Origin: Nitriliruptoraceae bacterium
Lineage (GTDB): Bacteria > Actinomycetota > Nitriliruptoria > Nitriliruptorales > Nitriliruptoraceae
Direction: 5' to 3'
NCBI GenBank assembly: GCA_007130695.1
Contig: SLRZ01000232.1
Coordinates: 1-39,169, forward strand
Length of the DNA: 39,169 nt
Numbering within the stretch: the stretch's first letter is position 1; each line of letters begins with the position of its first letter. Below, piece by piece: positions 21,747 through 38,866 of this stretch. The translations under genes and the position numbers were made by a program. The notes beneath the pieces were generated by a model that was not told the origin of the DNA, did not search any database, and saw only the letters and a program-made list of their open reading frames with translations.

Positions 21747-22284
21747 CGCCCTTCGAGTGGGCAGGAACGAAATTCGTTTCCGACCTCGCGCCTCCTGTCG
21801 GCGTGAGGCTCGTCCGGGGGCGGCGGCGAAGCCAGCCCGGCTTGCGACGGGAATGCGCGGCTGTCGTCTATCACGCGAGCAGTGGGTATGCCGACGCCCG
21901 CGGCACGAGAGCCGCGGGCGTCGTGCGCCCGCGGCTAAATCCGGGGAAAGATTTCGCCGCAGGCGCCTTGCATAGCCGATCCGGTAACGGGATGGGGCGT
22001 TCCCGCTCCTCGGTCGGCCTGCTGCGATCATGGGGCAGCTGCGATGGGCATTCCATGCCGGAATGCACGCCGTGACCGTGTGGTCCGACAAGGCCCGAGG
22101 CACCGGGACCGAACCGGGCGCAACACGCGCCCGTTTCGCCGGCCCGTGAACCATTCCCGGGCTGCTGTCGGTGGCTGTGGGCCCACCCGGCACGGCCGTG
22201 GAACTTGGCACAGACCGACCGGTGAGGATTGCATGGACGGTTTCGCGACCCCAGCGCAATATCAGAGGAGGTAACCGGGCGAGC
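21747..22284 (+). promoter_or_regulatory. 538 bp structured leader/intergenic region before the sugar transferase
   Basis: This gap holds no sizeable gene but several perfect inverted repeats. At 21893-21922 a 12 bp hairpin (GACGCCCGCGGC/GCCGCGGGCGTC, loop ACGAGA) has its 3' arm repeated in inverted form again at 21926-21935, so two mutually exclusive hairpins are possible. A 7 bp hairpin GCATTCC-ATGCC-GGAATGC lies at 22048-22066. A further GC-rich 7 bp hairpin CGGGCGC-AACAC-GCGCCCG at 22115-22133 is followed by TTT. I found no match to a riboswitch class that I know. No clear promoter was identified. Confidence 0.55.
22233..22274 (+). CDS. Possible 13-codon leader peptide overlapping the next gene's ribosome site
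   Basis: ATG 22233 has GTGAGG 5 bp upstream and encodes MDGFATPAQYQRR before TAA 22272-22274. Its final codons coincide with the AGAGGAGGT Shine-Dalgarno (22264-22272) of the sugar-transferase gene, so a ribosome translating it would cover or release that site. No homology can be judged from 13 residues. Confidence 0.3.
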   Translation: MDGFATPAQYQRR

Positions 22285-24060: not shown

Positions 24061-24846
24061 TCAGGCGAGCTGCACCAGCAGGTCGTGCGGTTCGAGGGAC
24101 GTGGCCCGGTCGCGGCAGCGGTCCTGCAGTCTCGGTAGGTCCAGCACGACCAGGGAGCGACGCCCGGTGAGGACGATGCCCGCGTTCCTCAGCCCGTGAA
24201 GGACCTTGGCCGTCGACTCACGCGATGACGCCGCCCACGCCGCCAACTCGTCCTGTGTCAACGGCAGGGTCACGACCACCCGGTCGCCATCGGATTCTCC
24301 CCACTCCAGTGCCAGATCCAGGACACGGCCCGTAACGCGCTCGCGGGTGGAGGTGCCGGCGAATCGTAGGGCCTCGGCCTGGGACAAGGCGAGCTGGCGG
24401 CCGACGGTTCTCAGGCAGTTCGCCGTCACCGCAGGTCGCGCAACCAGGAGGTTGCGTAGCTCGGGTCCGGGGACGGCCAGTGCGTCGATATCCTGGATCG
24501 CCGTCAGGTGCGTCCCTGCCCGGCGGTAGCCCAGTGGTGCTCCAAACCCCCAGGCATCGCCGGGACCTAGCAGTGCCGTGATCACCTGTTCGCCGGATCT
24601 CGTGGTCATGTGGGACTTGGCGGCTCCGCGAGCCACGAGTACGACCGCGTCGTCACCGGCCGACAACAACCGTTGGTCTCGGGGTACGTTCACTGCCCGG
24701 CAGGCATCCAACAGGGCCCTGAGATCTTCCTCCGGCAATCGGTGCAGGAGGGGCGAGTTCCAGACCGACCGCTCGGTCGTATTGCTGCCCTCAACGGGTT
24801 CTGCGCGACGGCGCTTCGTCTGCCATGGTGCGAATTCCTCACGCAT
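24061..24846 (-). CDS. Crp/Fnr family regulator lacking cAMP-binding residues
   Basis: A 261-residue Crp-fold regulator. The N-terminal cyclic-nucleotide-like beta-roll covers about 30-150 and the winged helix about 165-240, with recognition helix SSRESTAKVLHGLR (Arg-Glu at 209-210 and Lys214 at the E. coli Arg180/Glu181/Arg185 positions). In the phosphate-binding cassette, WGFGAPLGYRRAGTHLTA replaces the G-E-L...R-S/T of cAMP-binding CRP, so cAMP is probably not the ligand. There is no N-terminal Cys cluster as in Fnr. ATG 24846 has AGGGG about 6 bp upstream. It is divergent from the response-regulator gene and convergent with the sugar transferase, between parts of the polymer locus, so local control is likely. 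Target sites not identified. Confidence 0.9.
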   Translation of the reverse strand: MREEFAPWQTKRRRAEPVEGSNTTERSVWNSPLLHRLPEEDLRALLDACRAVNVPRDQRLLSAGDDAVVLVARGAAKSHMTTRSGEQVITALLGPGDAWGFGAPLGYRRAGTHLTAIQDIDALAVPGPELRNLLVARPAVTANCLRTVGRQLALSQAEALRFAGTSTRERVTGRVLDLALEWGESDGDRVVVTLPLTQDELAAWAASSRESTAKVLHGLRNAGIVLTGRRSLVVLDLPRLQDRCRDRATSLEPHDLLVQLA

Positions 24847-25192
24847 ATGCGCCCCTGCCCTCTGGTTGTCCCGGTGCGGCCGCCCCGGGCCGCAGATGCT
24901 CCCGGGGTGACCCGTAGATCTCGCTGCCGCCCGTCGTGCACGCTGGCCCATCATTCGTCCGAACCGACCAGTGCCCGGATCGTCCGGACCCACGGTGCCG
25001 TTCGCTGCGGCAGGATCAGTACACCCGTGCGCTCGACGGGAAGGGGGGGTCAGGTGTCCTCCCAGTTCTCTGGCCAGGGCGAAACGCGGCCGTCGTCCCG
25101 GCTGCGACCGCCGGCGGACCTCGGTCGGTGTACTGTCGCCTCAGGGGATCTGCTTGCAGGTGCCGCCGGTGCGGCAGAGGGACGGTCGGACC
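24847..25192. promoter_or_regulatory. 346 bp divergent control region between crp-like and response-regulator genes
   Basis: No gene is seen. It contains a 7 bp hairpin TGCGGCC-GCCCCG-GGCCGCA (24875-24894) in the probable 5' leader of the Crp-like gene, a TACTGT -10 candidate for the response regulator at 25131-25136, and a 6 bp hairpin TGCCGC-CGGT-GCGGCA (25161-25176) immediately before that gene's GAGGGA ribosome site. Confidence 0.4.
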
Positions 25193-25870
25193 ATGGGGCG
25201 AGTTCGTGTGTTCGTGCTCGACGATCATCAGGTTGTTCGTGAGGGTGTGAAGGCGGGGCTGGCGGCTGCTGGGGACATCGACGTTGTCGGTGAGGCCTCG
25301 ACCGCGCGTGAGGCCACGGAGGGACTGCTCCGATCCGTCCCCGATGTCGCGATCCTCGACGTCCGCTTGCCCGACGGGAGCGGTATCGAAGTCGCACGCC
25401 ACGTGCGTAGTTGCGAGCCATCCGTGGCCTGCCTGATGTTCACGGCGTTCAGCAGTGAGGATGCATTCCTCAAGTCCGTTCTCGCCGGCGCCGTCGGGTA
25501 CCTGCCCAAGAACGCCGGTGGTCCGGAAATCGTCTCCGCCGTTCGCCGTGCTGCGGCTGGGGAGTCGCTGATCGACCCCGCGCAATTGGACAGGCTCCGA
25601 GCCCGAATCCTCCCGCAGGAAGCGTTCAACGGCCTGCTGCTCACCCTGACCCCACATGAGCGTCGCATCCTGCACTTCGTGGCCGAAGGCCGTACGAACC
25701 GCGAGATCGCCGCGGAACTGAAGCTCGCCGAGAAGACGGTCCGCAATTACGTCTCATCGATCCTCGGAAAGATCGGCGTCCGCAACCGCACGCAACTCGC
25801 CGTCTACGTGGCGGGTCTGGTGAGCCAGGCGGCTGCCGGCGACGGGCCGCGGAACGAGGCCTCGATCTGA
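25193..25870 (+). CDS. NarL/LuxR-type response regulator, DevR/DosR-like
   Basis: A 225-residue two-domain response regulator. The receiver (1-120) has Asp10/Asp11, phosphoacceptor Asp56 (VAILDVRLPDG), Thr84 and Lys106 (GYLPKNAG). The LuxR helix-turn-helix (about 150-210) starts TLTPHERRILHFVAEG. Its recognition segment LAEKTVRNYVSSILGKIG (178-195) is, from memory, nearly identical to that of mycobacterial DevR/DosR, which reads GGGAC half-sites. No histidine kinase gene is in the window, so the regulator is an orphan here. ATG 25193 has GAGGGA upstream. Palindromes of GGGACA-NN-TGYCCC precede two or three units of the polymer locus downstream, making this protein their most likely activator (inference). 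Confidence 0.93.
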   Translation: MGRVRVFVLDDHQVVREGVKAGLAAAGDIDVVGEASTAREATEGLLRSVPDVAILDVRLPDGSGIEVARHVRSCEPSVACLMFTAFSSEDAFLKSVLAGAVGYLPKNAGGPEIVSAVRRAAAGESLIDPAQLDRLRARILPQEAFNGLLLTLTPHERRILHFVAEGRTNREIAAELKLAEKTVRNYVSSILGKIGVRNRTQLAVYVAGLVSQAAAGDGPRNEASI

Positions 25871-26118
25871 CGGGCGAACTGCCGGCGGCTCACTGCGTGT
25901 GAAGGAGCCAAGCGCGCGGCAGCCGCTCGCGCCGGCGGGCGCGGACGCGCCGATCGGGCACGAATGTGCGCGCATGGAGCGCCGTCGTGCGTCATGGCCG
26001 ATTTCGCCCGGTTTGTCTCAATGATGCCCGATGGCCGTCCGACGGCACGGGTGGAGCCAGGCAGCAAGCGCGTCGCTTGAAAGGGGATGCCGGCTTCCAG
26101 TCTCCAAGGACGGTTTCC

Positions 26119-28173
26119 ATGCACCGGTTCGACCTGAGTTCGCAAGCCCCCCCGCCCCCCGATCTTCCACGTGACCCGGCAAGCGCCGAGCCCCCGATCG
26201 CCGCTCCTCGTGCCGTTCGAGCTACTGCCGCGTTCCTTGCGATCATGGGGATGCTCGCCGCCTACCTCGTCACCGCAGCCGCCCCGGCCGATGCCGCCGA
26301 CCACACATTCACGGGCCGGGTGGACGCAGCCTCGAACAGTTGGGCGGCGCACCGGGTCCAGATCTCGGATCCCTCGACCGTGACCGCCACGCTCGACTGG
26401 ACCACGACCTCGGCGGATCTGAATCTCGGCCTGCGCGATCCCTCCGGCAGCTGGGTGCAGTGGTCGGCGTCGTCATCGGCCCGACCAGAGATCATTGAGT
26501 ACGAGGTCGAGCCCGGGGAGTGGACGCTCGGCATCTCGGCCCGTGAGGGCGCCTCCGACTACACCCTTCGCGTGGCCGTGGAGCCTCACAATGGCTCAGG
26601 GGACGCCTGGGAAGCCGACAACGGGTGGGGAAGTGTCCAGCCATGGGCCATCGAGCAGGAGTCCCGCACCCACGTCTGGACCGAGGAAGAGGCCGTTGAG
26701 GCCGCGACGAACTTCCCACTCATCACCGCGCTGCGCAACAGCTATCGGGCACATGTCCCCGCGATGCGCAGGGCCAACCCCGAGCTCGAGCTCTCGGTGT
26801 ACATGAACGGCGTGTTCGCGCAGGCCAACCAGCAGGACGCCTACCCGCCGAGCTGGTATCTGCGGGACGCCGATGGAAACAAGATTTCGAACAACTGGGG
26901 CATCTGGCTCATGGATCCGGCCAATCCGGGATGGGTCGAGGACAGAGCCCAGACCTGTCTCGACTTCATGAGCTTCAGTGGGTACGACGGATGCTTCGTC
27001 GACAACCTCGGGCCAGGTGCCATCTGGCTTCCGTCGCTCTCTGCCGAGCCGATCAATCCTCGGACGGGACGGGCCTGGACCCGGCAGGAATGGATGACGG
27101 CCACCACCGCGCTCACGGAACAGCTGCAGGCGACGGCGGCACCCAGTCCAGTGTTGGTGAACGGCCTGGGGTACGGGAACGAGTACTTCCGTGGGGTCGC
27201 CCCGACCAGTGACCTCCTGGAGGTCGCCGACGGCGCCCTCGCCGAGATCTGGCTTCGTGCCCCTTCGCAGGGGATCTCCAGTCACCGCCCGAAGAGTGCC
27301 TGGCTGCGTGACGTGGAGCTGGTCGCCGACGCGGTGGCGCGTGGCAAGACCGTCATGGTCTCGACGAAGGTGTGGACCGATGGGTCCCGAGCGCAGAAAG
27401 AGGCCTGGCACCGATTCGCCCTGGCATCATTCATGCTCGCCGACGACGGAAGCAACTACTTCGCGTTCAGCTATGGCCGTGACGAGGATCCGACGGTGGG
27501 GAACGACCTTTGGTCGATCGATGTCGGTGAACCTGTCGGAGCCTACGAGGCATTTGAAGACGTCTACCGGCGTGATTTCAGTCAGGGGAAGGTTCTCGTG
27601 AACCCCACGGAAACCGCGCGAACGGTGCAGCTCGACCGCGCCTATGTGGATCCCGACGGCGTCGAGCGGACGTCCGTTCGCCTCGAGAGCCACTCCGGCA
27701 CGATCCTGCGGACCTCGGAGGCAGACGAGCGGGATGCCCAGGATCCCTCGGGTGAGGAAGATACCGACGACGCTCCGGGTGACGAGGACGGCGAGGACGC
27801 TGTGGGCGACGATGACGGAGAGGACGGCGAGGACCCCCAGGACCCTCCGGGTGACGAGGACGGCGAGGATGTCGACTCGACGCTGACCCGCGTCGCCGAC
27901 GTCCGTTTCGCGGACCGGGGGCGCCCGAACATGGACGTCTCCTTGGGGGTCGAGGCCGGTGAGACGCCCCTGGCCGGCGCCGAGGTCCGGTACCGCCTCA
28001 TGCGAGATGGCGAGCTGACCGAACGGGTCAGGGTGACGACGGACGACGACGGCAGCGCTGCCCACCGCTTCCGTCACCTCGATACCGGTTGCTTCGAAGT
28101 CGTGGTCGAGGACGTCGACCACGACGAAGGTTCCTGGGACGGTGCGACGCCCGAGAACCGCCACTGCCGGTGA
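26119..28173 (+). CDS. Secreted PPC-domain protein with TIM-barrel putative glycoside hydrolase (GHL15-like)
   Basis: 684 residues, probably exported or membrane-anchored: a hydrophobic stretch at about 33-57 ends in APADAADHTF, after an unusually long N-region. Residues 62-155 are a PPC-like beta-sandwich (LDWTTTSADLNLGLRDPSGS). Residues 178-490 resemble putative glycoside hydrolases of the GHL15 kind, with WYLRDADGNKISNNWGIWLM, a likely catalytic Asp295 in GYDGCFVDNLG and Glu376 in GALAEIWL. A highly acidic Asp/Glu/Gly/Pro linker (535-587) leads to a C-terminal Ig-like domain (588-684). ATG 26119 has AAGGA 9 bp upstream. It is preceded by a 248 bp gap and followed by a hairpin. Role inferred: trimming or remodelling of the surface polymer. 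Family assignment is by motif memory and may be off. Confidence 0.82.
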   Translation: MHRFDLSSQAPPPPDLPRDPASAEPPIAAPRAVRATAAFLAIMGMLAAYLVTAAAPADAADHTFTGRVDAASNSWAAHRVQISDPSTVTATLDWTTTSADLNLGLRDPSGSWVQWSASSSARPEIIEYEVEPGEWTLGISAREGASDYTLRVAVEPHNGSGDAWEADNGWGSVQPWAIEQESRTHVWTEEEAVEAATNFPLITALRNSYRAHVPAMRRANPELELSVYMNGVFAQANQQDAYPPSWYLRDADGNKISNNWGIWLMDPANPGWVEDRAQTCLDFMSFSGYDGCFVDNLGPGAIWLPSLSAEPINPRTGRAWTRQEWMTATTALTEQLQATAAPSPVLVNGLGYGNEYFRGVAPTSDLLEVADGALAEIWLRAPSQGISSHRPKSAWLRDVELVADAVARGKTVMVSTKVWTDGSRAQKEAWHRFALASFMLADDGSNYFAFSYGRDEDPTVGNDLWSIDVGEPVGAYEAFEDVYRRDFSQGKVLVNPTETARTVQLDRAYVDPDGVERTSVRLESHSGTILRTSEADERDAQDPSGEEDTDDAPGDEDGEDAVGDDDGEDGEDPQDPPGDEDGEDVDSTLTRVADVRFADRGRPNMDVSLGVEAGETPLAGAEVRYRLMRDGELTERVRVTTDDDGSAAHRFRHLDTGCFEVVVEDVDHDEGSWDGATPENRHCR
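27773..27869 (+). repeat. 25 bp perfect direct repeat in the acidic linker
   Basis: The same 25 bases occur at 27773-27797 and 27845-27869, encoding the repeated unit PPGDEDGED/APGDEDGED. The spacing is 72 bp, a multiple of three, so expansion or loss of units keeps the reading frame. Confidence 0.85.
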
Positions 28174-28238: not shown

Positions 28239-28281
28239 GGGGACAGTTGTCCCCGGTCTCCGGTCAGCGGCGCCGTAGCCT
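28239..28281 (+). promoter_or_regulatory. DevR-like palindrome plus -10 box (site A)
   Basis: The perfect palindrome GGGGACA-GT-TGTCCCC occupies 28239-28254. A TAGCCT -10 begins at 28276, 22 bp after the inner TGTCCC arm, so the operator centre falls near -41.5 and replaces a -35 element. This layout is repeated at site C and fits a class II activator-dependent promoter for the B2-like gene. Confidence 0.6.
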
Positions 28282-28411
28282 CTACCTGAGCATCGCGGCA
28301 ACTGCCAGGCGCCCCTGCCGGTGGGCAATGCGGCCGTTCGGCGGCGGGTCGCGGCCACGTGTGCCGAGAGGATCGAGTCATGGATGGTGACGAGTCTCCG
28401 GGTCACCGATC

Positions 28412-28873
28412 ATGAGCGCGCGACGGGGGGCGAGGAGAGAGCAACCCCCAACCGGTGACGAAGATGCCGGGTACGGGTTCCTCGCGGAGCTGGTCGCCAA
28501 GACGGCACTGGCCGGACGTGTCGTGTACTGGTTCCTCGTCGTGCGGCAGCGCGTGTACCGGGCCCCACTGACCGAGACCGTCGACTACCTCGCGAACATC
28601 CGGCTCCGGGCGTTCATGCCTCACCCGCCCCGGCGGCTGGGACGTGCCGTCGACGCGTTGTTGCGCTTCGGGGGGCGCCGACCATCGTCGCTCGTTCGAG
28701 CGCTGGTCCTGTTCCGTTTGCTTCGGGCCCAGCGGCTGCCCGCGCAGTTGGTCGTCGAAGGCTCCCATATGGCACGCCGAACGGGTGGTTGCGCCTGGGT
28801 GGAGGTGGCCGGAGTCGACCTCGGTCCCTCACCGGGTGGCAGACACCGGTCACCGGGGTTTCGGTACGGCTGA
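28412..28873 (+). CDS. Degenerate lasso-peptide B2/transglutaminase-like protein
   Basis: A 153-residue protein resembling the B2 (Transglut_core3) leader peptidases of lasso-peptide pathways: LVRALVLFRLLRAQRLPAQL (94-113) then CAWVEVAGVDL (127-137), corresponding to the usual C-L-x-R-S-L-V-L-Y-x-L-L-R and H-A-W-V-E-V. The catalytic Cys is replaced by Ser93 and the His by Cys127, so peptidase activity is unlikely. The first 60 residues are basic and helical. ATG 28412 lacks a clear ribosome site. It is followed after 141 bp by a nucleotidyltransferase gene; B2-like and such nucleotidyltransferase genes are often seen together in surface-polymer clusters. No B1/PqqD partner or precursor peptide is found nearby. 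Function unknown; a binding or scaffold role is possible. Confidence 0.7.
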   Translation: MSARRGARREQPPTGDEDAGYGFLAELVAKTALAGRVVYWFLVVRQRVYRAPLTETVDYLANIRLRAFMPHPPRRLGRAVDALLRFGGRRPSSLVRALVLFRLLRAQRLPAQLVVEGSHMARRTGGCAWVEVAGVDLGPSPGGRHRSPGFRYG

Positions 28874-28909
28874 AGGTTTTCGTTCAGTGACGGCTCGGTC
28901 TGGATAGCC

Positions 28910-28951
28910 AGGACAGATGCCCCTGATCGCTGACGGCCGGCGAGCCACACT
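28910..28951 (+). promoter_or_regulatory. Weaker DevR-like palindrome (site B)
   Basis: AGGACA-GA-TGCCCC at 28910-28923 matches the GGGACA-NN-TGYCCC pattern with one mismatch. Exactly 22 bp downstream is CACACT (28946-28951), an imperfect -10. Start would be near 28958, 57 bp before the nucleotidyltransferase GTG. Confidence 0.35.
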
Positions 28952-29014
28952 GCGTTGAGTCCGACAAAGGATTCGGGCCATAGGCCCCTGGGGCATCTTC
29001 GACAGGACGCAGTA

Positions 29015-30235
29015 GTGACGCGATCTCGTGTACTCGCTGCGCTCGTCGCCGGGATGCGCGAGCCGACGGCCGGGCCTGCGCTCGAGGTTTGCGGCCTACT
29101 CGAGGACGGTGGACTGACCGCACTCCTGGACCTCGCAGCGGCCAACCGGGTCGAAGCACTTCTCCATCGACAGCTCGAGTTGACGCCCTACCGGTCACAT
29201 GCCCGGGTCGCCGCCCTTGCAGGTGTGCGGGAGGCACAGCTGCAGCGGCACCTGCGCGCGCTCACCGACCTGGTGGCGTTCGGCGAAGTGATGGACCGAC
29301 TCGGAGCACCATGGCTGGTCGTCAAGGGACCGGTGCTCGCTGAGCGACTCTATTCCCGCCCCGACCTTCGACTGTACGGCGACCTCGATCTGGTCGTGCC
29401 CAACACGGTGTTCGCCCGAACACTTGAGGCGCTCGAGGCGGAGGGCGTCGAGGTGCTCGACCGAAATTGGACCCTGCTCCGCCGTGAGGTACGGGGGCAG
29501 GTCCATCTAGTCCTGCCCTACGGCAGCGTCGCTGACCTCCACTGGCACCTGGTGAACGATGGACGCATCCGCCGCGAGCTCAGCATCGACATGAGCGAGG
29601 TGTTTGCGGCAAGGCGGTACGTCGACGTCAACGGGCTGTCGGTTCCGACACTGGATACCAGTGACATGGTGGCCCATCTCTGTCTGCATGCGGCCCTCGC
29701 CGGCGGTCACCGGCTCAGTTGGCTCCAGGACCTCGACCGCCTCGCGGCCCTCGAGGAGCCCGGATGGGGGCAGGTGTGTACCCGTGCCACGGAATGGGGG
29801 GTCGGACCGCTCGTAGGAATCGTCCTGGCGAGATGCCGGTCGGTGCTCGGGACACCCGTGCCAGATGAGGTCCTCACTGCGCTCTTCGCATCGATCTATC
29901 GGCAACACATCACCCGCTTCGTGGATCACCACAGCCCGCCGGCGTTCTCCGGGGGACGGGCCACCCCCGCCACGGTGTGGGCCCAGGTGGCCAGACCGAC
30001 GTGGCGGGCCACGTGGCGTGCCACTGCGGCACGCCTCACACGTCGCAGTCGGGCGGCGCTGGGGCGCCGACGCGAGACGGGCCGACTCGGCGCCCCCGGG
30101 CGTGACGCACCGAGACGCGCTGCGGTCTTGCGTGTCTCCGGAGGCCCGGAGGACCGGGCCGAGTATCTGTCGGAGGTCACCCTCGGAGCGCGAAGCCAGG
30201 GGCACAACACCACCGAACCGAGGAGGAGCGCATGA
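29015..30235 (+). CDS. Uncharacterised nucleotidyltransferase (NTP_transf_5 family)
   Basis: A 406-residue protein of the uncharacterised nucleotidyltransferase family (PF14907 type). The signature LVVKGPVLAERLYSRPDLRL is followed by YGDLDLVV, where Gly122-Asp123-x-Asp125 is the metal-binding motif of polymerase-beta-like nucleotidyltransferases. A His-rich HLCLHAALAGGHRLSWLQDL element, also typical, follows near 225-245. The C-terminal 80 residues are Arg-rich and low-complexity. GTG 29015 was chosen (AGGACG about 7 bp upstream); a TTG at 28955 is in frame but less likely. The stop overlaps the next ATG (ATGA), so it is coupled to the sulfotransferase gene. The target, such as a lipid-linked sugar, protein or small molecule, is unknown. 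Confidence 0.85.
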   Translation: MTRSRVLAALVAGMREPTAGPALEVCGLLEDGGLTALLDLAAANRVEALLHRQLELTPYRSHARVAALAGVREAQLQRHLRALTDLVAFGEVMDRLGAPWLVVKGPVLAERLYSRPDLRLYGDLDLVVPNTVFARTLEALEAEGVEVLDRNWTLLRREVRGQVHLVLPYGSVADLHWHLVNDGRIRRELSIDMSEVFAARRYVDVNGLSVPTLDTSDMVAHLCLHAALAGGHRLSWLQDLDRLAALEEPGWGQVCTRATEWGVGPLVGIVLARCRSVLGTPVPDEVLTALFASIYRQHITRFVDHHSPPAFSGGRATPATVWAQVARPTWRATWRATAARLTRRSRAALGRRRETGRLGAPGRDAPRRAAVLRVSGGPEDRAEYLSEVTLGARSQGHNTTEPRRSA

Positions 30236-31251
30236 GGTCCGTCGGAGGGCAGAAACGCGGGAACTCGTCCGTTCCGGATCGCTCACTGGACCTCGAACTG
30301 CGGGCCACGGGTCAGACGCTCGACGGGGGTGCGCAATCACCGCTGTCATTCCTGGCCGGTAAAGCCAGGCGTCACTGGCAGTGGGGCCGCTCGGAGGGTT
30401 GGGCGAGACTCATCGAGGAGGATGAACTCAACCCGCTCGACCGGTTGCACCGTTCCTGGGCAAGTCACCGCTGGCAGGCCGTGCACCGGCGCCCCCGAGG
30501 CGACGCCAAGCCGGTCTATCTCGTCGGGGTCCAGCGGTCCGGGACCAACATGGTGGTCCGGGGTCTGGACCGGGCCCCCGAGGTCGAAGTGCACAACGAG
30601 AACGACCGTCGTGCGTTCCAGCATTACCGCCTTCGTGAGGACGAGCGGGTCCGTCAACTGACCGACCGTAGTCGGGCGAAGGTCGTCCTCTTCAAGCCCC
30701 TGTGCGATTCCCATCGGGTAGACGGAATACTCGGCGCGACCGCCACACCGGGCCTCGCGCTGTGGGCCTGCCGATCGGTCGAAGGACGAGTCCGTTCGTC
30801 GCTCGCCAAGTTCGGCGACCACGATCTCACGGTCGTCCGCGCCATCGCGCGGGGACACGGAAGCAAACTGTGGCAGGCTCAGCGCTTGTCGCCAGCCAAT
30901 ATCAGCCTACTCAGAAGTTTCGACCACCCTGGCCTCACACCGGCGTCTGCCTCGGCATTGTTCTGGCTGGTCCGCAACTCCCTGTTCTTCGAGCTCGGGC
31001 TGCACCGTCGCAGCGATGTCGGCCTCGTCTCCTACGACCGTTTCGTTGTCGATCCGGCCACGGTGATGATGGCGATGTGCCGGTTCATCGGTTTGGAGTT
31101 TCGTCCGGCCCTCATCGCCCACGTTGGAGACCGCGCGCCCAAGGTGCCCTCTGAGCTCGACATCGAGGCCGGCGTGCGGGACGCCTGCGAGGGGCTCCAT
31201 CTGCAGCTCAACGCGGCCGCGCGGAGGTGGGAGGGTGACCACGGACCCTGA
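30232..31251 (+). CDS. Sulfotransferase family protein (P-loop)
   Basis: A 339-residue protein with a PAPS-type sulfotransferase start in the middle: VYLVGVQRSGTNMVVRGLDR (about 95-114) is the 5'-phosphosulfate-binding loop (Q-R-S-G-T-N). The remainder is divergent, with VSYDRFVVDPATVMMAMCRF typical of the C-terminal region (Y-E-x-L...P...L). A polar, Arg-rich N-terminal extension of about 90 residues precedes the domain. Start ATG 30232 overlaps the preceding stop as ATGA. The flippase GTG lies inside its 3' end (31235 against stop 31251). Together with the minus-strand sulfotransferase at 34290 it suggests that the polymer or its carrier is sulfated. Substrate unknown. Confidence 0.8.
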   Translation: MRSVGGQKRGNSSVPDRSLDLELRATGQTLDGGAQSPLSFLAGKARRHWQWGRSEGWARLIEEDELNPLDRLHRSWASHRWQAVHRRPRGDAKPVYLVGVQRSGTNMVVRGLDRAPEVEVHNENDRRAFQHYRLREDERVRQLTDRSRAKVVLFKPLCDSHRVDGILGATATPGLALWACRSVEGRVRSSLAKFGDHDLTVVRAIARGHGSKLWQAQRLSPANISLLRSFDHPGLTPASASALFWLVRNSLFFELGLHRRSDVGLVSYDRFVVDPATVMMAMCRFIGLEFRPALIAHVGDRAPKVPSELDIEAGVRDACEGLHLQLNAAARRWEGDHGP

Positions 31252-32893
31252 GTCGATGCGGGCCGGCCCTCGCCAGGGGGCACCGTCGGAGCACATCGAG
31301 GCTCCGCGGGTTGTCCGTGACTCCTCGTTCACGGCCTTGGCAGCGGCGCTGGGCGTCGCCTCGGGGCTCCTGGTCGACATCGCCATCGTCGCGACCTTCG
31401 GCGCCGGCTCGGCGACGGACGCGTTCTTCGTCGCGGCCCGGCTCCCGCTCGCCACGGTGACCATACTGATGGTGGGCGCCGGCCAGGCCCTGGTGCCGGC
31501 GTTCTCGACCTGGGCGGTACAGCGCGATCGGCGCGACGCCGACTGCTCCATATCCCATGTGCTCACCATGATCGTGTGTGGCGGCATCTTCACCGGACTG
31601 CTCTTGGTGCTCACGGCGGTGCCCCTCGTTGCGGTCCTGGCCCCGGGACTTCCCGCTGCCACGGCTGCCCACGCGGTCGGTCTGCTCCGGACGCTCGCTA
31701 TCCTCGTGCCCTTATTGGCCGTGGCTGAGGTCCTGCGCGCGGTGCTCAACGCCCGCCGTTCGTTCGCGGCCCCGGCGGGCATGAACCTCCTCATGAACCT
31801 CGTGGTCGTCGGAGTGATCCTGGGCACCGCCCACCAGGACGTGCGGCGGCTCGCACATGCCTTCGTGCTCGGGGCGCTGGTCAAGGTCGCCTATCTGGCC
31901 GTGTTGGCGCACCGTCGGGGGTTCTCGTTCCGGCCGACCTTCCGGTCCACCGATGCGGTGTCTGCGCTGCGCCTGTGCGTCAAGCCCGCGGGAGCAGCGG
32001 GCTTGAGCCCAGTGGCCCGCATCGCGGAGCAGGCGCTCGCTTCGTTTCTCCCGGCCGGATCCATCTCGATACTGAACTATGCCCATCGACTGGTGTGGGC
32101 CATCGGGGGCACCGTCTTCTTCCGGTCCATCGTCAGCACGATCGTGCCCCGGGTCACGGAGCACAGCGTGCGGGGACGTCGGACCGAAGTCCTGCGGGAG
32201 ACCGCCGCCGGCGCCCGTCTGATCATCGCGGTCACCGTGCCCCTGACCATGCTCATGGTCACCATGGGGGAGCCGTTCATCGTTGCGACTTTCACCCGCG
32301 GCAATTTCGACGAGGCGGGAGCGAGACTTCTCGGCCTCGTGCTGGCGGTGCTCGCGGTCGCGCTGCTCGGGGAAGCACTGCAGCGGGTCCTCATGGTGCC
32401 CTTCTACGCGAGACTCGATATGGGCACTCCCTTCCGCAACGCGGCCTACGGCGTCTCGTCCAATCTGGTGCTGATCGCCGGCGTGTTCGCTCTGCGCCAG
32501 CGTCCTGTCACGGCGCTCGTGTCCCTGGCCGTGGCGTTCACGCTGTCGGAGTACGTGGGGCCGGTACACGCCTGGCTCCGGATCCGGGCCTCCGTGGGGC
32601 CCCTCCCGATCTCGATCCTGCGCCGGCTCCTGGCACACCTCCCGGCGGTTGTGGTCGGGTCCGCCGTCTGTGTCTCGCTCCGAGTGATCCTCGGTCTCGA
32701 CGCGCCCATGCCGCGGGTGGACCTCCTCGCCCTCACGAGCCTGGTGTCCGCGTCCGGGCTGGCGGCGTACTGTCTGGTGTGGTGGGGGACGGACCCACGG
32801 GCCAGAGGGTCCGTGGCACGGGTCTGGCACCGTTCGCCGCCGCCCCAGCCCGCGGTCACCCCCGCGGGCGCACACGGGCAGGAGCCGGGATGA
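31235..32893 (+). CDS. MurJ/MviN-like lipid-linked oligosaccharide flippase
   Basis: A 552-residue polytopic membrane protein of the MOP superfamily, most like MurJ, with about 14 hydrophobic segments. The opening FGAGSATDAFFVAARLPLATV matches the conserved D-A-F-x-x-A-x-R-(L/I)-P region of MurJ. Residues around ARIAEQALASFLPAGSIS resemble the cation/substrate cavity helices. In this locus it most probably flips the undecaprenyl-linked repeat unit as a Wzx-equivalent rather than lipid II. GTG 31235 was chosen because GGAGG lies 7 bp upstream; it overlaps the sulfotransferase gene by 17 bp. Its stop overlaps the ATG of the ligase gene (ATGA). Confidence 0.88.
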   Translation: MTTDPESMRAGPRQGAPSEHIEAPRVVRDSSFTALAAALGVASGLLVDIAIVATFGAGSATDAFFVAARLPLATVTILMVGAGQALVPAFSTWAVQRDRRDADCSISHVLTMIVCGGIFTGLLLVLTAVPLVAVLAPGLPAATAAHAVGLLRTLAILVPLLAVAEVLRAVLNARRSFAAPAGMNLLMNLVVVGVILGTAHQDVRRLAHAFVLGALVKVAYLAVLAHRRGFSFRPTFRSTDAVSALRLCVKPAGAAGLSPVARIAEQALASFLPAGSISILNYAHRLVWAIGGTVFFRSIVSTIVPRVTEHSVRGRRTEVLRETAAGARLIIAVTVPLTMLMVTMGEPFIVATFTRGNFDEAGARLLGLVLAVLAVALLGEALQRVLMVPFYARLDMGTPFRNAAYGVSSNLVLIAGVFALRQRPVTALVSLAVAFTLSEYVGPVHAWLRIRASVGPLPISILRRLLAHLPAVVVGSAVCVSLRVILGLDAPMPRVDLLALTSLVSASGLAAYCLVWWGTDPRARGSVARVWHRSPPPQPAVTPAGAHGQEPG

Positions 32894-34308
32894 GGCTCCC
32901 CGTCGGACGAACGCGGACCCACCGGGGCGCAGTGGCCCTGCTCCTTCTTCTCGCCCCGGCCATGGCATTGGCCTTCGGGTGGTTGGTGGCCGCGGGCGGG
33001 GACGCCACCTCGGGCGCGGACCGCCGCGGTGTCGTGGCGGCGCTGGGAATCGGCTTGGCGCTGCCACTGCTGGCGGCCACCATCACCCGGTTCGAGATGT
33101 TCGTGCTCGGGCTCCTCGTCGCGCGAGCCAGCATCGACCACCTCCGCCTCGGGACCGATGCCGTCGAGGTGACCGAGCTCCTCGCCGCCATGTTCATTCT
33201 CGGCGGACTCGCGTGGCTGGTCGCGGGCTCGAGGGCACCGAGTGCCGGCAGCCGGCCCTTGAGCCGGTTCGCCTGGCTCGTCCTGCTGTCCGGGGCGGTC
33301 GCCGTCGTGGGCTCGGCGGAACCCGCGACGAGCGCGGTCGAATTCGCCCGGATCTCTTCTGCGCTACTGATGCTCGTGGTGTGTGAGCGGCTCTTCACCG
33401 GCGTCCCCGAGGCACGTCGGCTGCTCGTCGCCCTCTTCCTGAGCGCGCCGATTCCACTGGCACTCGCCTTGCACCAGTGGGCGACCGGTCAGGGGCTCGT
33501 GTGGGTCGATGAGATCGGCCGTGTCGCGGGGACCTTCTCCCACCCCAATTCGCTCGCCATGTACCTCGCGTTCCTCATCATCATGGGAACCGCGGTGCTG
33601 GAGCGTCCCAGAGGCCGGTGGTCCTACCGGTTTCTCGGGCTGCTCCTGCCGTTGCTGTGGCTCGCCTTGATCTCCACCTTCATGCGTGGGGCATGGATCG
33701 CGACGGTGGTCGGCGTGGGGGTGGTGGCCTGGCAGCGGGATCGTCGGGCGGTGTACGCATTCGTCGCCGTGCTCACGGCGCTGGCCGTGCTGGTGCCCTC
33801 GATCTCGATGCGCTTCTCCGACCTCGCGACCACCACGCAGGAGTCCGGTGATGCGGGCAACTCCCTCATGTGGCGGGTCGAGCACTGGGGGGAGTCGCTC
33901 TCTCTGAGCGAGGACCAGCGCTTGACGGGGGTCGGCCCGCGCATGATCCAGGAGTTGTCGCACGACGGGAAGGCCGCGCACAACGACTTTGTCCGCACCT
34001 ATGTGGAGACCGGCGTGCTCGGTCTCGTCGCCTATCTCCTGTTCCTCTGGGCGCTATGGCGTCGGGCCCGTGAGGCTTTGCACCGGTCTGACACTGGACT
34101 CGCACGGGGGATCGCGGTGGGCTTCGTCGGGCTGGTGCCGTCCTTCATCCTGTTGTCGTTGAGCGACAACCTCATGTCCCAGGGGGTGGTGTTCTGGTAT
34201 TTCGCGGCCATGGCCGGGTGTGCTTCGGCACTCATCGACGCCGGCCCTGCCCCGGACGGAGCGAGCCCACGACCGTTCGATCACCCGCGTCAGCAGCTCG
34301 AGGCGTAG
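32890..34308 (+). CDS. O-antigen ligase/polymerase family membrane protein (Wzy/WaaL-like)
   Basis: A 472-residue integral membrane protein with about 11-12 hydrophobic segments. The family signature is the periplasmic loop region GTFSHPNSLAMYLAF (H-P-N as in many Wzy_C/O-antigen ligases), followed by RGAWIATVVG and a long hydrophilic loop with GVGPRMIQ and KAAHNDFVRTYVETGVLGL (the conserved H-N-x-x-(L/F)...E-x-G-x-x-G). It polymerises repeat units or ligates the chain to an acceptor outside the membrane. ATG 32890 overlaps the flippase stop as ATGA, so the four genes from the nucleotidyltransferase on are translationally coupled. Its 3' end overlaps the convergent sulfotransferase gene by 19 bp. 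Confidence 0.88.
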   Translation: MRLPVGRTRTHRGAVALLLLLAPAMALAFGWLVAAGGDATSGADRRGVVAALGIGLALPLLAATITRFEMFVLGLLVARASIDHLRLGTDAVEVTELLAAMFILGGLAWLVAGSRAPSAGSRPLSRFAWLVLLSGAVAVVGSAEPATSAVEFARISSALLMLVVCERLFTGVPEARRLLVALFLSAPIPLALALHQWATGQGLVWVDEIGRVAGTFSHPNSLAMYLAFLIIMGTAVLERPRGRWSYRFLGLLLPLLWLALISTFMRGAWIATVVGVGVVAWQRDRRAVYAFVAVLTALAVLVPSISMRFSDLATTTQESGDAGNSLMWRVEHWGESLSLSEDQRLTGVGPRMIQELSHDGKAAHNDFVRTYVETGVLGLVAYLLFLWALWRRAREALHRSDTGLARGIAVGFVGLVPSFILLSLSDNLMSQGVVFWYFAAMAGCASALIDAGPAPDGASPRPFDHPRQQLEA

Positions 34309-35201
34309 CCGTATCGCTGCAGTGTTTCCCCGAGAAGGGTGTCGAGACACGCGACGTCCGAAGGGTCCAGCTCGCGACGGAAGGCATCGCCCCTGCCCGC
34401 GCGGAGATGATGGCGAGCCACTCCCTGTTTGAACGCCCGGTTCGGCCGGAGTCCGACGAAGCCGAGAAGTCGGCCGAGTTCCGGTCCGGGTCGCGCGAGG
34501 ATGTCCTCGTAGCGAACATCGATCCATTGGCCGGGCGCGATGACTTGACGTGCGCGCTCGTGCTCCTCGACGACGGCCTTCCAGAACAATCCCGCGAGCA
34601 CGGCGAACGAGTTGCCCGAGCCCTCCCAGGCCTCGAGATCCATTGCGGTGAGTGATCGCAGTGCCGCCGCATCCCGGTGATCCTGCCACCACGACATCTG
34701 TACCAGGGAGTTCGCGACGGCGCGGCCGTCCCGAACGATGTTGATGAAACGAGCTTCAGGAAATGCCGCGGCGATGAAGCCCGCTCGGGGCCACCCCGTG
34801 AACTTGTGCAGGAAGACCGGCTTGCCTTGGCGGGCGGCGCGGTCCTCGAAGTGGGTACGGCACCGGTCACGGAGCCACGGTGACGCGTCCGGCTCCCACA
34901 GTGAGCGGCCCGGCGCGACGACGAGGGGCGATACCTCACGGGCGAGGACACGGTAACCCTCCGATGGGGCGTAGCGCAGTCGGCCCTTGCGGGTCAGCGA
35001 CTCCGGCACGTGGCGGTAGATCTCGCCGTTGTGACGGCCCCCGCGCAAGACAGGGAATCGGTCGTCGACGTTCGAGATGAAGCCGATGTCCGGATGTCGG
35101 GACAGCAACTCCTGCACGAGACTCGATCCGCATCTGCCGGTGCCGGTCGCGAAGGCGAAGACCGGCGGGGCACCGCGCAACGCGAAGTCGCCTTCGACCA
35201 T
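34290..35201 (-). CDS. Sulfotransferase
   Basis: A 303-residue PAPS-dependent sulfotransferase with a clear 5'-phosphosulfate loop, PVFAFATGTGRCGSSLVQEL near residues 13-32, and the 3'-phosphate-binding strand-helix FINIVRDGRAVANSLVQMSW about 120 residues later. DVRYEDILARPGPELGRLLG is the C-terminal Y-E-D-(I/L)...P segment. It transfers sulfate from PAPS to a hydroxyl or amino group, probably of a sugar in this locus. ATG 35201 is the start used. A strong AGGGGAGG lies about 22 bp upstream, too far for this codon, so the true start is uncertain. The gene is transcribed against the main operon, converging with the ligase gene and divergent from the Wzz-like gene. Confidence 0.88.
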   Translation of the reverse strand: MVEGDFALRGAPPVFAFATGTGRCGSSLVQELLSRHPDIGFISNVDDRFPVLRGGRHNGEIYRHVPESLTRKGRLRYAPSEGYRVLAREVSPLVVAPGRSLWEPDASPWLRDRCRTHFEDRAARQGKPVFLHKFTGWPRAGFIAAAFPEARFINIVRDGRAVANSLVQMSWWQDHRDAAALRSLTAMDLEAWEGSGNSFAVLAGLFWKAVVEEHERARQVIAPGQWIDVRYEDILARPGPELGRLLGFVGLRPNRAFKQGVARHHLRAGRGDAFRRELDPSDVACLDTLLGETLQRYGYASSC

Positions 35202-35278
35202 GTGGCCCGCTACCGCGATGGCGATCACCTCCCCTGACAACTGAGGGCGAACGTAGAAGCACCGCGTCGAGGGAAGTA

Positions 35279-35320
35279 GGGACATCTGCCCCGCTTGTCC
35301 CGAGCCGGGAGGCATAGCGT
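35279..35320 (+). promoter_or_regulatory. DevR-like palindrome plus -10 box (site C)
   Basis: GGGACA-TC-TGCCCC spans 35279-35292, and the -10 TAGCGT is at 35315-35320, exactly 22 bp after the palindrome as at site A. It would drive the Wzz-like gene (GTG 35391) from a start near 35327. The site also sits about 80 bp before the divergent sulfotransferase start and could affect both. Confidence 0.6.
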
Positions 35321-35390
35321 CAGCAAGAGCGCGGCCGCACAACCAGCCAGGTGGTCGCCGGGGACAGGACCCTTCGGGGCCGGAGGATCA

Positions 35391-36497
35391 GTGGAGTTGG
35401 AACTGCTGGAGTACTGGCGGAGCTTGGGGAAGCTGCGATGGGGGATCCTGGTCATGGGGATCGCCGCCGCTGCGAGCGCAGCGGTGTTCGGCATTTCGCA
35501 GCCCACGTTGTACGAGGGGCGAGCCACCGTCACGGTGCCGATCAGCGGGGTCTTCAGTTCGCCCAGTGCCGTCCGTCAGGTGGTCGCGAACTACACGGCG
35601 CACGTTCGGTCCGTGCAGGTCGTCGAGGGTGTGCACGAGGAGACCGACGAAGCCCTCGGCGCCCTCGAGAAGGAACTGCGGGTCCGTCAGTCGGGGGATG
35701 GCAACCTGGTCGATATCTGGTACCGCTCGCCATCCCCCGACCGGGCAGCGGTGGTGCCCAGCCTGGCCGCGGAACTCGCCCTTCGCGCGCACCTGGGGCC
35801 CGATGTCGCGGAGGCGGAGGCCTTTGGGGAGTTGGCGGTCACGGCGCTGGAAACGGTGGACGAGGAACTGGAGAACTTTGCGGACGAGGCGGGCGGCCGC
35901 CTCCCGAGTTCGGAGTACGAGGCGGGCATGACGGAGCTCACGCAGCTGCGAGCCGAGTTGGGGCGGGCGCGCGTCGCGGGGGAAACAGAGGATGCCCGGG
36001 CGATCGAAGTCCTCATCGGCGACGCGGAGGCACAGCTCGACGGGATGTCAGCACCGCTTCGAGCAGAACGCAGACTGACGGAGGAACGGGACCGGGCGAA
36101 TGGGCTCGTGGCCCAGGCTGAGAGTGAGCTCCTGCAGGCCCGGGGGCGTCAGGGAGTGACCGACTCGGGTGAGGTGGTCCACGCCGGCACCGTGCAACTG
36201 GTCCCGGGGCTGCCTTCTATCGTCGAGGCTGCGGCCACTGCGATGGTGGTCGCGGCCCTGGCGTCCCTGCTCGCGCTGGTCACCGGCGAGTACGCCCGTC
36301 GGGCTTGGTCGGCCCGCCGTGAAGGAGGCGGGCCTAAGGGGACGGCCAGCGGGCGCTCCGACACCCGCGGTTCACCGAACGACCACGAGGGCCTCGGCAA
36401 GGAGCTGTCCGAACTGGACTCCCGGCCAGAATTCGTGGGGACCTCTGGTGCGGAGAACGCAGTCGACGTCTGGAACGAGTTCGGATCCGCGCCATGA
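35391..36497 (+). CDS. Wzz-like chain-length/polysaccharide co-polymerase protein
   Basis: A 368-residue protein with the topology of polysaccharide co-polymerases: a short cytosolic N-terminus (MELELLEYWRSLGKLRWG), a first membrane helix at about 17-36, a periplasmic-side region of about 240 residues rich in charged helices (LGALEKELRVRQSGDG; coiled-coil-like stretch at about 180-265), a second helix at about 278-297, and a 70-residue polar tail. Y-E-G-R-A-T-V-T-V-P after the first helix corresponds to the Y-x-A/G-x-A-x-(V/L) of Wzz proteins. No tyrosine-kinase domain is fused. GTG 35391 has GGAGG at 35382-35386. The stop overlaps the next ATG (ATGA). It probably controls polymer length with the ligase/polymerase. 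Confidence 0.8.
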   Translation: MELELLEYWRSLGKLRWGILVMGIAAAASAAVFGISQPTLYEGRATVTVPISGVFSSPSAVRQVVANYTAHVRSVQVVEGVHEETDEALGALEKELRVRQSGDGNLVDIWYRSPSPDRAAVVPSLAAELALRAHLGPDVAEAEAFGELAVTALETVDEELENFADEAGGRLPSSEYEAGMTELTQLRAELGRARVAGETEDARAIEVLIGDAEAQLDGMSAPLRAERRLTEERDRANGLVAQAESELLQARGRQGVTDSGEVVHAGTVQLVPGLPSIVEAAATAMVVAALASLLALVTGEYARRAWSARREGGGPKGTASGRSDTRGSPNDHEGLGKELSELDSRPEFVGTSGAENAVDVWNEFGSAP

Positions 36498-38866
36498 AAC
36501 CCCTCCCCGAAGCCGCTCGCGGATCCGCGTTGGGCACGAGACGGGGGCTGATGTGGTGTGTGCTGGCGAACCTGTTGCTCCTGGCCCTACCAGCGGCTGC
36601 GCTGGCGGCCACCACCACGACCTTCAACGGTCACGTGTCGAAGACCGGTACCAGTTGGCGCGCCCACCAGTTCGAGATGGCCGCAGGCAACACGCTGACC
36701 GCCACGTTGGACTGGAGTGGCGATGCGAACCTGGACCTATTCCTCCAGGATCCGGCGGGGACCTGGGTGCGCAGCGCGACGAGCACCACGGCGAAGCCGG
36801 AGGTGATCCGCTGGGACGCGACCTCCACCGGGACCTGGGTGCTGGGTGTCCGGGCGACGAGCGGCGCGGCCGACTACGACCTCGCCGCGGTCCTTGGCAG
36901 CGCAGGAGAGCTGGCCGGAACGGTCAGTTCGTCTGGGGTCTCCTGGCGATCCCATCCCCTGGCGTTGGACACGGGACCGATCACCCTGACCCTCGACTGG
37001 AACGAGCCCGGTGCCAATCTCGATCTCTTCCTCCGCAGCCCCAATGGGACCTGGGTGCAAAGCGCGACGAGCACCACGGCGAAACCGGAGGTGATCACCT
37101 ACGACGTCCTCGAAGCGGGGACGTGGTCAGTGGGCGTGCGTGCGACGTCGGGTAGTGCCGACTACACCATCCAGGTCGGCCGGCTTGGGAGCGGCGCGGT
37201 ACCCCGGCACCTCCGAGACATCGGAGGCGCCGGTCGCGCGGAGATGTATCCATCGGGATTGGATGTCGATGCAGCAGGTCGTCTCTACGTCGCCGACACC
37301 GGGAACGACCAGGTGGCGGCGTACGCGTCCGATGGCAACCCCCTGTGGCGGGTAGGCACGCGGGGCAGGCAGCCGGGACAGTTCGCCGAGCCACGCGACG
37401 TCGCCGTCGTGGGATCGCGCGTCTATGTGGCGGATACCGGAAGTAACCGGGTCCAGGTGCTCGACGCCGCGAACGGAAAGACCATAACCACTTGGAACAC
37501 GTGGTTCGGCGCCGCTATGGGGATAAGCCAGGGCCAGAGTCCCGACGGAACACCCCTCCTCCTCGTGACTGACGGCACCAGCGGTCGGGTCGGCCTGTTC
37601 AGGGAGAACGGCACACTGCTGAGGTGGGTCGGCGCCCCAGGGACGGCGGACGGACAACTCAACGCCCCCAGAGACGCCGCCACGGATGACCAAGGAAACG
37701 TCTTCGTTGCGGATTTCCGTAACCACCGCATCGCTGTGTTCGCCCCCAACGGCGGCTGGCTGGGAAGCTTCGGCACCCTGGGGACGGGTGACGGGCAACT
37801 CCGGGCGCCCTACGGCGTGGCCATCGACGACCAGGGTCGCCTCTACGTCGCCGACAGCAACAACGCACGGGTCCAGGTCTTCACACGCGACGGGGAGTAC
37901 CTCGCACAGTGGGGGAGGAAGGGCGACGGACCACTCGAATTCGAGCAGCTCCGGCGCGTGGCCGTCGGGCCTGGTCAGCAGCCGCGCCTCTATGCGGCAG
38001 ACCTCTGGGGCAACAAGGTCGACCGTTGGACGCAGGACGGGGTGCACGAACTCAGCTACGGCGGCGCGCCGCCACCGCTGGGTGGTTTCAACAAGCCCTA
38101 CGGCTTCACCGTCACCGACGGTCAGGTGTTCGTCTCCGACACCGGTAACCAGCGCATCCAGCGGTTCAGTCGGGATGGCACGTTCGAGCTCGCCTGGGGT
38201 GACCGCGGGTGGGCCGAGGATGCGCAGGGACTGAACTGGCCGCGCGACATCGCCTTCTCCGAGCAGCGGGGCAGCACGTTCGTCGCCGACTCGAAGAACC
38301 AGCGCGTCCTCGAGTTCGGCCTCGACGGTTCCCGGAGGGAGGGGCAGATCCCGCAGGCCGTCACGCCACCGGTCACGCTCAACTGGCCGCAGGCCGTCGA
38401 CGTGCTCGGCGACGACGTGATCGTGGCCGACACCTTCAACCACCGGGTCCAGCGTTGGACGCCGCAAGGTGGGCTGGTCTGGACCGCGACGGGATTCAAC
38501 TTCCCGAAGGACGTCGACGCGCAGGCAGACGTGGTCCTGGTGGCCGACTCGTTGAACAAGCGCATCGTCCGCCTCCGCTCCAGTGACGGGACGACCCTCG
38601 GGTCGATCGGGGCGGATCACCTGAACCGCCCCGAAGGCGTGGCGCAGGCACCGGGGGGAACCATTTGGGTCGCGGACACCTCGTGGAACCGCCTGGTCGA
38701 ACTTCGCCAGGACGGGTCGCTGGTGCAGCGCTTCGGATCCGGGGGCACGACAGCCGGACGGTTCAACGAGCCCACGAAGCTGGAGATCGCCGAAGCCGGG
38801 GGGGTGACCGAACTGTACGTGGCGGACACGGGGAACGACCGACTGCAGGTGTTCCGCATCAACTGA
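36494..38866 (+). CDS. Secreted protein with two PPC-like domains and about 12 NHL repeats
   Basis: 790 residues. A signal peptide is clear (hydrophobic 20-38, LLLLALPAAALAA, cleavage near 39). Two PPC-like beta-sandwich domains follow (about 40-133 and 139-228), each ending in a W-x-L/S-G-V-R-A-T-S-G segment. From about 250 to the end are about 12 NHL blades recognisable by (L/V)-Y-V-A-D-T-G-N-x-R-(V/I)-Q-V, for example LYVADTGNDQV, VFVADFRNHRI and LYVADTGNDRL. Twelve blades would suit two six-bladed propellers, possibly binding carbohydrate or acting as a scaffold. No catalytic motif is seen. ATG 36494 overlaps the Wzz-like stop, so expression is coupled to the polymer machinery. The next gene starts 25 bp later. 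Confidence 0.9.
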   Translation: MKPLPEAARGSALGTRRGLMWCVLANLLLLALPAAALAATTTTFNGHVSKTGTSWRAHQFEMAAGNTLTATLDWSGDANLDLFLQDPAGTWVRSATSTTAKPEVIRWDATSTGTWVLGVRATSGAADYDLAAVLGSAGELAGTVSSSGVSWRSHPLALDTGPITLTLDWNEPGANLDLFLRSPNGTWVQSATSTTAKPEVITYDVLEAGTWSVGVRATSGSADYTIQVGRLGSGAVPRHLRDIGGAGRAEMYPSGLDVDAAGRLYVADTGNDQVAAYASDGNPLWRVGTRGRQPGQFAEPRDVAVVGSRVYVADTGSNRVQVLDAANGKTITTWNTWFGAAMGISQGQSPDGTPLLLVTDGTSGRVGLFRENGTLLRWVGAPGTADGQLNAPRDAATDDQGNVFVADFRNHRIAVFAPNGGWLGSFGTLGTGDGQLRAPYGVAIDDQGRLYVADSNNARVQVFTRDGEYLAQWGRKGDGPLEFEQLRRVAVGPGQQPRLYAADLWGNKVDRWTQDGVHELSYGGAPPPLGGFNKPYGFTVTDGQVFVSDTGNQRIQRFSRDGTFELAWGDRGWAEDAQGLNWPRDIAFSEQRGSTFVADSKNQRVLEFGLDGSRREGQIPQAVTPPVTLNWPQAVDVLGDDVIVADTFNHRVQRWTPQGGLVWTATGFNFPKDVDAQADVVLVADSLNKRIVRLRSSDGTTLGSIGADHLNRPEGVAQAPGGTIWVADTSWNRLVELRQDGSLVQRFGSGGTTAGRFNEPTKLEIAEAGGVTELYVADTGNDRLQVFRIN
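36773..37096 (+). repeat. Near-identical 36 bp segments in the tandem PPC domains
   Basis: Bases 36773-36808 and 37061-37096 differ at a single position and encode the same SATSTTAKPEVI. The surrounding PPC domains are far more diverged, so this stretch looks recently copied or held by gene conversion. Confidence 0.85.

Follow-up and report, generated by a model that had tools for sequence, protein, structure and literature searches.

A 39-kb stretch of DNA from a Nitriliruptoraceae bacterium (contig SLRZ01000232.1; "the window" below means this whole stretch of 39,169 nucleotides) carries two strong copies of a palindromic box, GGGACA-N2-TGYCCC, together with a gene for a DosR-like response regulator and genes typical of surface polymer production. 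Box 1 (GGGACAGTTGTCCC, positions 28240 to 28253) forms the core of a 16-bp palindrome, GGGGACAGTTGTCCCC (28239 to 28254), in which 7-bp arms flank 2 bp, and box 2 (GGGACATCTGCCCC) occupies positions 35279 to 35292. The original prediction, made from the sequence of the window, had each palindrome followed at a distance of exactly 22 bp by a −10 hexamer, and reading of the sequence bore this out: the −10-like hexamers TAGCCT (28276 to 28281) and TAGCGT (35315 to 35320), both on the plus strand, lie 22 bp past box 1 and box 2, respectively. On the minus strand, a candidate divergent −10, TACGTT (35255 to 35250), lies 23 bp from box 2, so box 2 may also serve the divergent sulfotransferase gene on that side. 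Two weaker sites were also found, namely, box 3 (AGGACAGATGCCCC, 28910 to 28923; one mismatch), upstream of an NTP_transf_5 gene, and a possible degenerate autoregulatory box (GGGTCAGGTGTCCT, 25047 to 25060; two mismatches), between a Crp-type gene and the regulator gene. In relatives, too, the regulator gene has boxes in front of it, which supports the placement of the latter.

The genes of the locus, on the plus strand unless noted, begin with an initiating sugar transferase (Bac_transf in Pfam, 22171 to 24033), a Crp/FNR-type regulator (Pfam; 24061 to 24993, minus strand), the adjoining NarL/LuxR-type response regulator (25193 to 25870), and a GHL15 putative glycosyl hydrolase (domain match; 25966 to 28173). 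The first gene past box 1 is transglutaminase-like (Transglut_core3, 28412 to 28873; E value of 5.6e-05, just under the Pfam cutoff). Beside it lies the NTP_transf_5 nucleotidyltransferase-like gene (domain match; 29015 to 30235, with the GTG start at 29015 picked by eye); a side-by-side pair of this kind (28412 to 30235) is familiar from lasso-peptide clusters. Next come a sulfotransferase (Sulfotransfer_3 by domain match, 30232 to 31251), a MurJ-like flippase (31124 to 32893), and a Wzy_C/O-antigen-ligase-type polymerase (31975 to 34308); the last two are given by their open reading frame bounds, the true start probably being downstream for the flippase and well downstream for the polymerase. 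Box 2 lies between a second, divergent sulfotransferase gene (34290 to 35201, minus strand; ATG at 35201 picked by eye) and a Wzz/chain-length-determinant-like gene (35391 to 36497; Wzz E value of 6.5e-4, below the cutoff; GTG start picked by eye, with GGAGG at 35382 to 35386), which shares one unit with a gene for an NHL beta-propeller/PPC secreted protein (domain match; 36494 to 38866). The Bac_transf transferase, MurJ-type flippase, and Wzy_C polymerase of a Wzx/Wzy locus are present together, with Wzz matched weakly, and from these gene families the locus is read as one for a Wzx/Wzy-type, probably sulfated exopolysaccharide.

The protein encoded at 25193 has a receiver domain (PF00072) and a GerE helix-turn-helix domain (PF00196), both above the Pfam cutoff, as expected of the NarL/LuxR type. 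Its best solved relative is DevR/DosR (3C3W; E value of 1.8e-51), with 178 bits versus 119 bits for VraR, a lead of 59 bits. The recognition segment (LAEKTVRNYVSSILGKIGVRNRTQ) had been described as very close to that of DosR. In DosR, residues K179, K182, and N183 touch bases (PMC5861037). Alignment showed that K179 and N183 are kept in the 25193 protein, in agreement with that description, but residue 182 is Arg and the helix is followed by NRT rather than the RRT of DosR. DosR with the K182R substitution binds DNA about as well as the wild type (PMC5861037). The organism's own genome also encodes a general DosR-like regulator on contig C219, with a stretch identical to that of DosR (AEKTVKNYVS) and a GAF/HisKA_3 kinase alongside, and the 25193 regulator therefore represents a paralogous branch. 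The C219-type regulator has about 50% identity to the window regulator and the same domain plan, but it has K182 and RRT, occurs almost everywhere in the family, and has no link to the GGGACA box. Close to the C219 regulator and kinase genes, KaiB and KaiC-like genes (L058:5203-6494) were also observed.

The phospho-acceptor Asp (Asp54 of DosR) is kept in the window protein and in its relatives in genomes G003, G015, and G035. It is replaced by Gly in the proteins of G012, G028 (both copies), G029, and G016, in which a conserved Lys is lost too; these five regulators (L066, L072, L053, L071, and L233) are probably phosphorylation-independent pseudo-receivers. A histidine-kinase-like gene follows the regulator gene in G003, G015, and G035. 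Among the neighbors of the 25193 gene, there is no adjoining kinase of the DosS/DosT type, through which hypoxia, NO, or CO induces the DosR regulon, and a similarity search that started from the kinase next to the G035 regulator did not find the kinase of the window regulator, too many histidine kinases being matched.

Next, the boxes were compared with the DosR consensus, TTSGGGACTWWAGTCCCSAA (PMC2275270). The resemblance on which the original prediction relied holds for the half-sites: the window boxes have the same GGGAC-N4-GTCCC geometry and the same 14-bp core length. It does not extend to the center or the flanks, where A/T replaces T/A at the center-adjacent positions and the conserved outer bases (TTS/SAA) are absent. 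The proximal box of DosR promoters extends over the −35 region (PMC3029386), which would match a window box center near −41.5, the position predicted from the 22-bp spacing to the −10-like hexamers.

The original prediction proposed a scan of the whole genome for the box and its −10 hexamer. In the 3.3-Mb genome, the exact pattern GGGACANNTGYCCC occurred at five places, two of them inside the window, and the reversed control gave none; a TAGNNT hexamer at 22 bp accompanied the window pair alone. For the window, base composition alone would predict about 0.03 matches by our estimate. The other three exact boxes are on contigs C12, C76, and C127, those on C12 and C76 being near-copies of each other. 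The contig ends C12:3979-4200 and C76:33948-34169 are near-identical, with two boxes each, 208 bp apart, the C12 pair being upstream of a cupredoxin-like gene; this near-identity may reflect a duplication or a strain variant in the assembly. When two mismatches were allowed, the pattern was not commoner than its control, so only exact or near-exact sites are informative. The window was also ranked with a matrix built from 23 sites of relatives and none from the window. The positions 28240, 35279, 28910, and 25047 ranked first, second, third, and fifth, respectively, although the first two could in part be expected to score high because the matrix sites were gathered with patterns derived from the window motif. 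That no other position in the 39 kb outscores the three boxes is not expected from how the matrix was built.

Conservation in relatives was then assessed for the regulator and for the box. In a tree of DosR-like proteins, to be read with caution because of long branches, the window protein and seven others (from G012, G015, G003, G028 [two], G029, and G016) grouped together across a split supported at 98/91. These eight proteins scored about 300 bits or more, and all others at most 247 bits, with a profile that was built from the eight themselves; the next-scoring protein, from G035 (another family), shares their helix. The helix AEKT[VI]RNY followed by NRT was confined, within the set of sequences examined, to nine proteins encoded by eight genomes. 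In the remaining genomes, the best-matching DosR-like proteins have KNY and RR(T/A/S/V/P) wherever the post-helix stretch was covered, the comparison extending to those of the 66 genomes that gave a match at the cutoff. The perfect box, GGGACANNTGTCCC, was found at 14 places in 8 of 35 family genomes (reversed control, 2 places) and at 17 places in 10 of the 66 genomes of the class (reversed control, 7). All eight genomes with an RNY/NRT regulator contained the perfect box, versus 2 of the 58 without one (Fisher test, 7.8e-9, or 1.8e-5 with genera collapsed; both values are approximate because the genomes are related and the counts are not independent). The box is thus conserved and tied to the regulator branch.

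Other flavors of the site and more distant genomes were also searched. The canonical DosR flavor, GGGACTNNAGTCCC, occurred at 12 places in 10 genomes and did not track the regulator branch; it was therefore rejected as the box of that branch. Across 248 genomes of the phylum, the box with its −10 was found in family genomes and in one further genome only. Among 80 distant loci with LAEKTVRNY-type regulators, a single GGGACACATGTCCC was found, in an Erysipelothrix metagenome-assembled genome, with no sign of a regulon; a T-run follows it, and it is perhaps a terminator hairpin. A second flavor, GGGACCWTCGYCCCTG, with TANNNT at 23 bp recurs in G010, G021, G026, G031, G034, G039, and G041, which lack an RNY regulator; this flavor was found with a search pattern that required a 21- to 23-bp spacing and may be what the general DosR-like protein recognizes.

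Spacing between box and −10 was examined with 19 sites gathered without a spacing filter and read in both directions, giving 38 flanks with offsets of 0 to 55; sites from the pattern that demanded 21 to 23 bp were left out because they cannot test spacing. TANNNT occurred six times in these flanks, every time at 20 to 23 bp, and five of the six fell at 21 to 23 bp, where 0.37 would be expected. These counts favor the spacing claimed for the window, although many boxes are without a recognizable −10 at that distance.

The genes preceded by boxes in relatives include regulator genes and polymer or surface genes. The regulator gene has a box upstream in G012, G015, and G028, a near-box in G003, and a one-mismatch box in G035. 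Tandem boxes 29 to 40 bp apart lie upstream of the sugar transferase (Bac_transf) gene in G003, G015, and the more distant G035, and homologous nucleotide-sugar epimerase genes are preceded by a box in G003, G016, and G028 (one mismatch in G028). A sulfotransferase gene and an NTP_transf_5-like gene of G003, which belong to the same two families as the window pair, flank a near-box with TAGTCT at 23 bp, and another G003 box lies near the start of the gene for a large cadherin/Big_9 protein. G028 has one box upstream of an SLH/NHL protein gene, with TAGCGT at 22 bp, and one upstream of an SLH/polysaccharide-deacetylase protein gene. In all, boxes upstream of regulator and polymer or surface genes span five genera. 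Beside the boxed sugar transferase gene of G003, a pyruvate-kinase barrel fused to a PUA_2/ATP-sulfurylase part was observed (L056:6656-8893, minus strand), and an open reading frame 73% identical to it lies at a contig end in G015 (L117:10049-11329, minus strand). This fusion, which adjoins a sulfotransferase, may feed polysaccharide sulfation. The same G003 cluster encodes a GT4 glycosyltransferase with a C-terminal AAA_33 kinase-like domain (L056:3731-5827, minus strand), possibly an adenosine phosphosulfate kinase-like part.

These results suggest, with a probability of about 0.78, that the 25193 regulator belongs to a paralogous DosR-like branch that activates surface-polymer units through GGGACA-N2-TGYCCC boxes centered near −41.5. 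In the proposed mechanism, a dimer of the regulator would bind the box at that position and recruit RNA polymerase to promoters with a TANNNT −10 and without a −35. Box 1 would switch on the Transglut_core3/NTP_transf_5/sulfotransferase/flippase/polymerase unit, and box 2 would do the same for the Wzz/NHL unit and perhaps also for the divergent sulfotransferase gene. The product would be a surface polysaccharide of the Wzx/Wzy type, probably sulfated. In relatives, the same box would serve the regulator's own gene as well as genes for S-layer proteins, sugar transferases, and nucleotide-sugar enzymes. The sites, their spacing, their conservation, and the joint occurrence of box and regulator are seen directly in the sequences; that the regulator binds the box, that its effect is positive, that a phosphorylation signal controls it, and what the polymer is are predictions from them.

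Several observations weigh against this reading. The third copy of the box, described originally as weaker and at the same 22-bp distance from a poorer hexamer, indeed has one mismatch and is followed 22 bp on by CACACT, which is not a credible −10, and no strong box was found before the sugar transferase and regulator genes of the window, although relatives have boxes there. The exact boxes on C12, C76, and C127 lack a −10 at 22 bp, and their surroundings include a cupredoxin-like gene, carbohydrate genes, and small membrane genes; the regulon may extend beyond polymer genes, or these boxes may be chance matches. TANNNT lies near 22 bp in only 6 of the 38 flanks, many boxes having no recognizable −10, and with the window sites excluded, three TANNNT remained, two of them at 22 bp (P = 0.04), a weak test. 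G033 and G042 have a box without an RNY/NRT regulator; in G033, in whose assembly the regulator was not found, a perfect GGGACAACTGTCCC box at position 917 lies upstream of an FHA-LuxR gene (L111:272-955, minus strand). Some other boxes have no evident link (for example, near Mur-ligase-like genes in G016 and G029).

Whether the boxes belong instead to the general regulator on C219, the polymer units then being part of an ordinary stress or dormancy regulon, was considered. The DosR-identical AEKTVKNYVS stretch and DosS-like neighbor of C219 and the GGGAC half-sites shared with DosR are compatible with this, but relatives of C219 occur in nearly all family genomes with or without the box, which speaks against C219 as its owner. 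The box is almost confined to genomes with the other branch, the boxes adjoin genes of the 25193 branch, and no box of the GGGACA kind was found on the C219 contig; this assignment is unlikely. Chance matches in GC-rich DNA would account for some exact sites, since by our estimate from composition two to three are expected genome-wide and five places were found. They would hardly account for two strong sites with an identical 22-bp spacing in one locus, ranked first and second by a matrix from other genomes, or for the association of box and regulator among genomes, and we regard chance as a very improbable source of the window pair.

Two further readings keep the sites but alter the protein or the sign of control. 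Position alone is silent on the sign, and several boxes lack a fitting −10, so a dimer that covers the −35 region and blocks polymerase would also suit the data. However, no −35 was seen, the spacing is the same as for class II activators, and DosR-type proteins are mostly activators; repression is accordingly doubtful. The true binder could also be the Crp-type protein at 24061, whose gene adjoins the regulator gene, or an HTH_31 protein, since HTH_31 genes with boxes or near-boxes occur in two relatives (G012 and G028). Most boxes have no Crp-type or HTH_31 gene identified alongside, however, and the box fits the DosR geometry rather than known Crp-type sites, which leaves little room for either protein.

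With activation by the 25193 branch as the preferred reading, the locus would function in the manner of a DosR-type activator system. We do not count it strictly as a DosR regulon, since its box departs from the consensus and since signal and binding are predicted only. The system shares with DosRST of Mycobacterium tuberculosis the regulator fold, the closest solved structure, and residues K179 and N183, and it differs in having R182 and NRT, polysaccharide and surface genes as predicted targets, and no adjoining DosS/DosT-type kinase. Moreover, the phospho-acceptor Asp is missing from five of the nine RNY/NRT proteins. In other bacteria, exopolysaccharide and biofilm are controlled by the LuxR/NarL-family proteins RcsB, VpsT, and CsgD. 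The likeness to them lies in a LuxR-type helix-turn-helix protein placed over matrix or capsule genes; the window regulator is of another lineage with another DNA site and is far closer to DosR than to RcsB. A literature search on DosR-type regulators of exopolysaccharide returned nothing relevant. The original prediction of a regulon dedicated to a surface polymer is upheld insofar as site, regulator, and polymer genes recur together in relatives, but "dedicated" to one polymer is too narrow, since S-layer, regulator, and some unrelated genes are boxed and three further exact sites without a −10 exist in the same genome.

The finding provides a candidate regulator-site pair for control of exopolysaccharide and the cell surface in a little-studied actinobacterial lineage. 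It also offers a natural DosR paralogue in which the site is altered at two center-adjacent bases and the protein at a few residues in or just after the recognition helix, so that divergence of specificity inside the DosR family becomes directly testable. On a broader view, for which the odds seem to us evenly balanced, a duplicated DosR-type regulator would have shifted its inner preference from T/A to A/T and, within one actinobacterial order, come to govern genes for the envelope and for sulfated polysaccharide in a regulon that includes its own gene. Part of the lineage would then have lost phospho-acceptor control entirely, a dormancy-type switch having been turned into a surface-building one.

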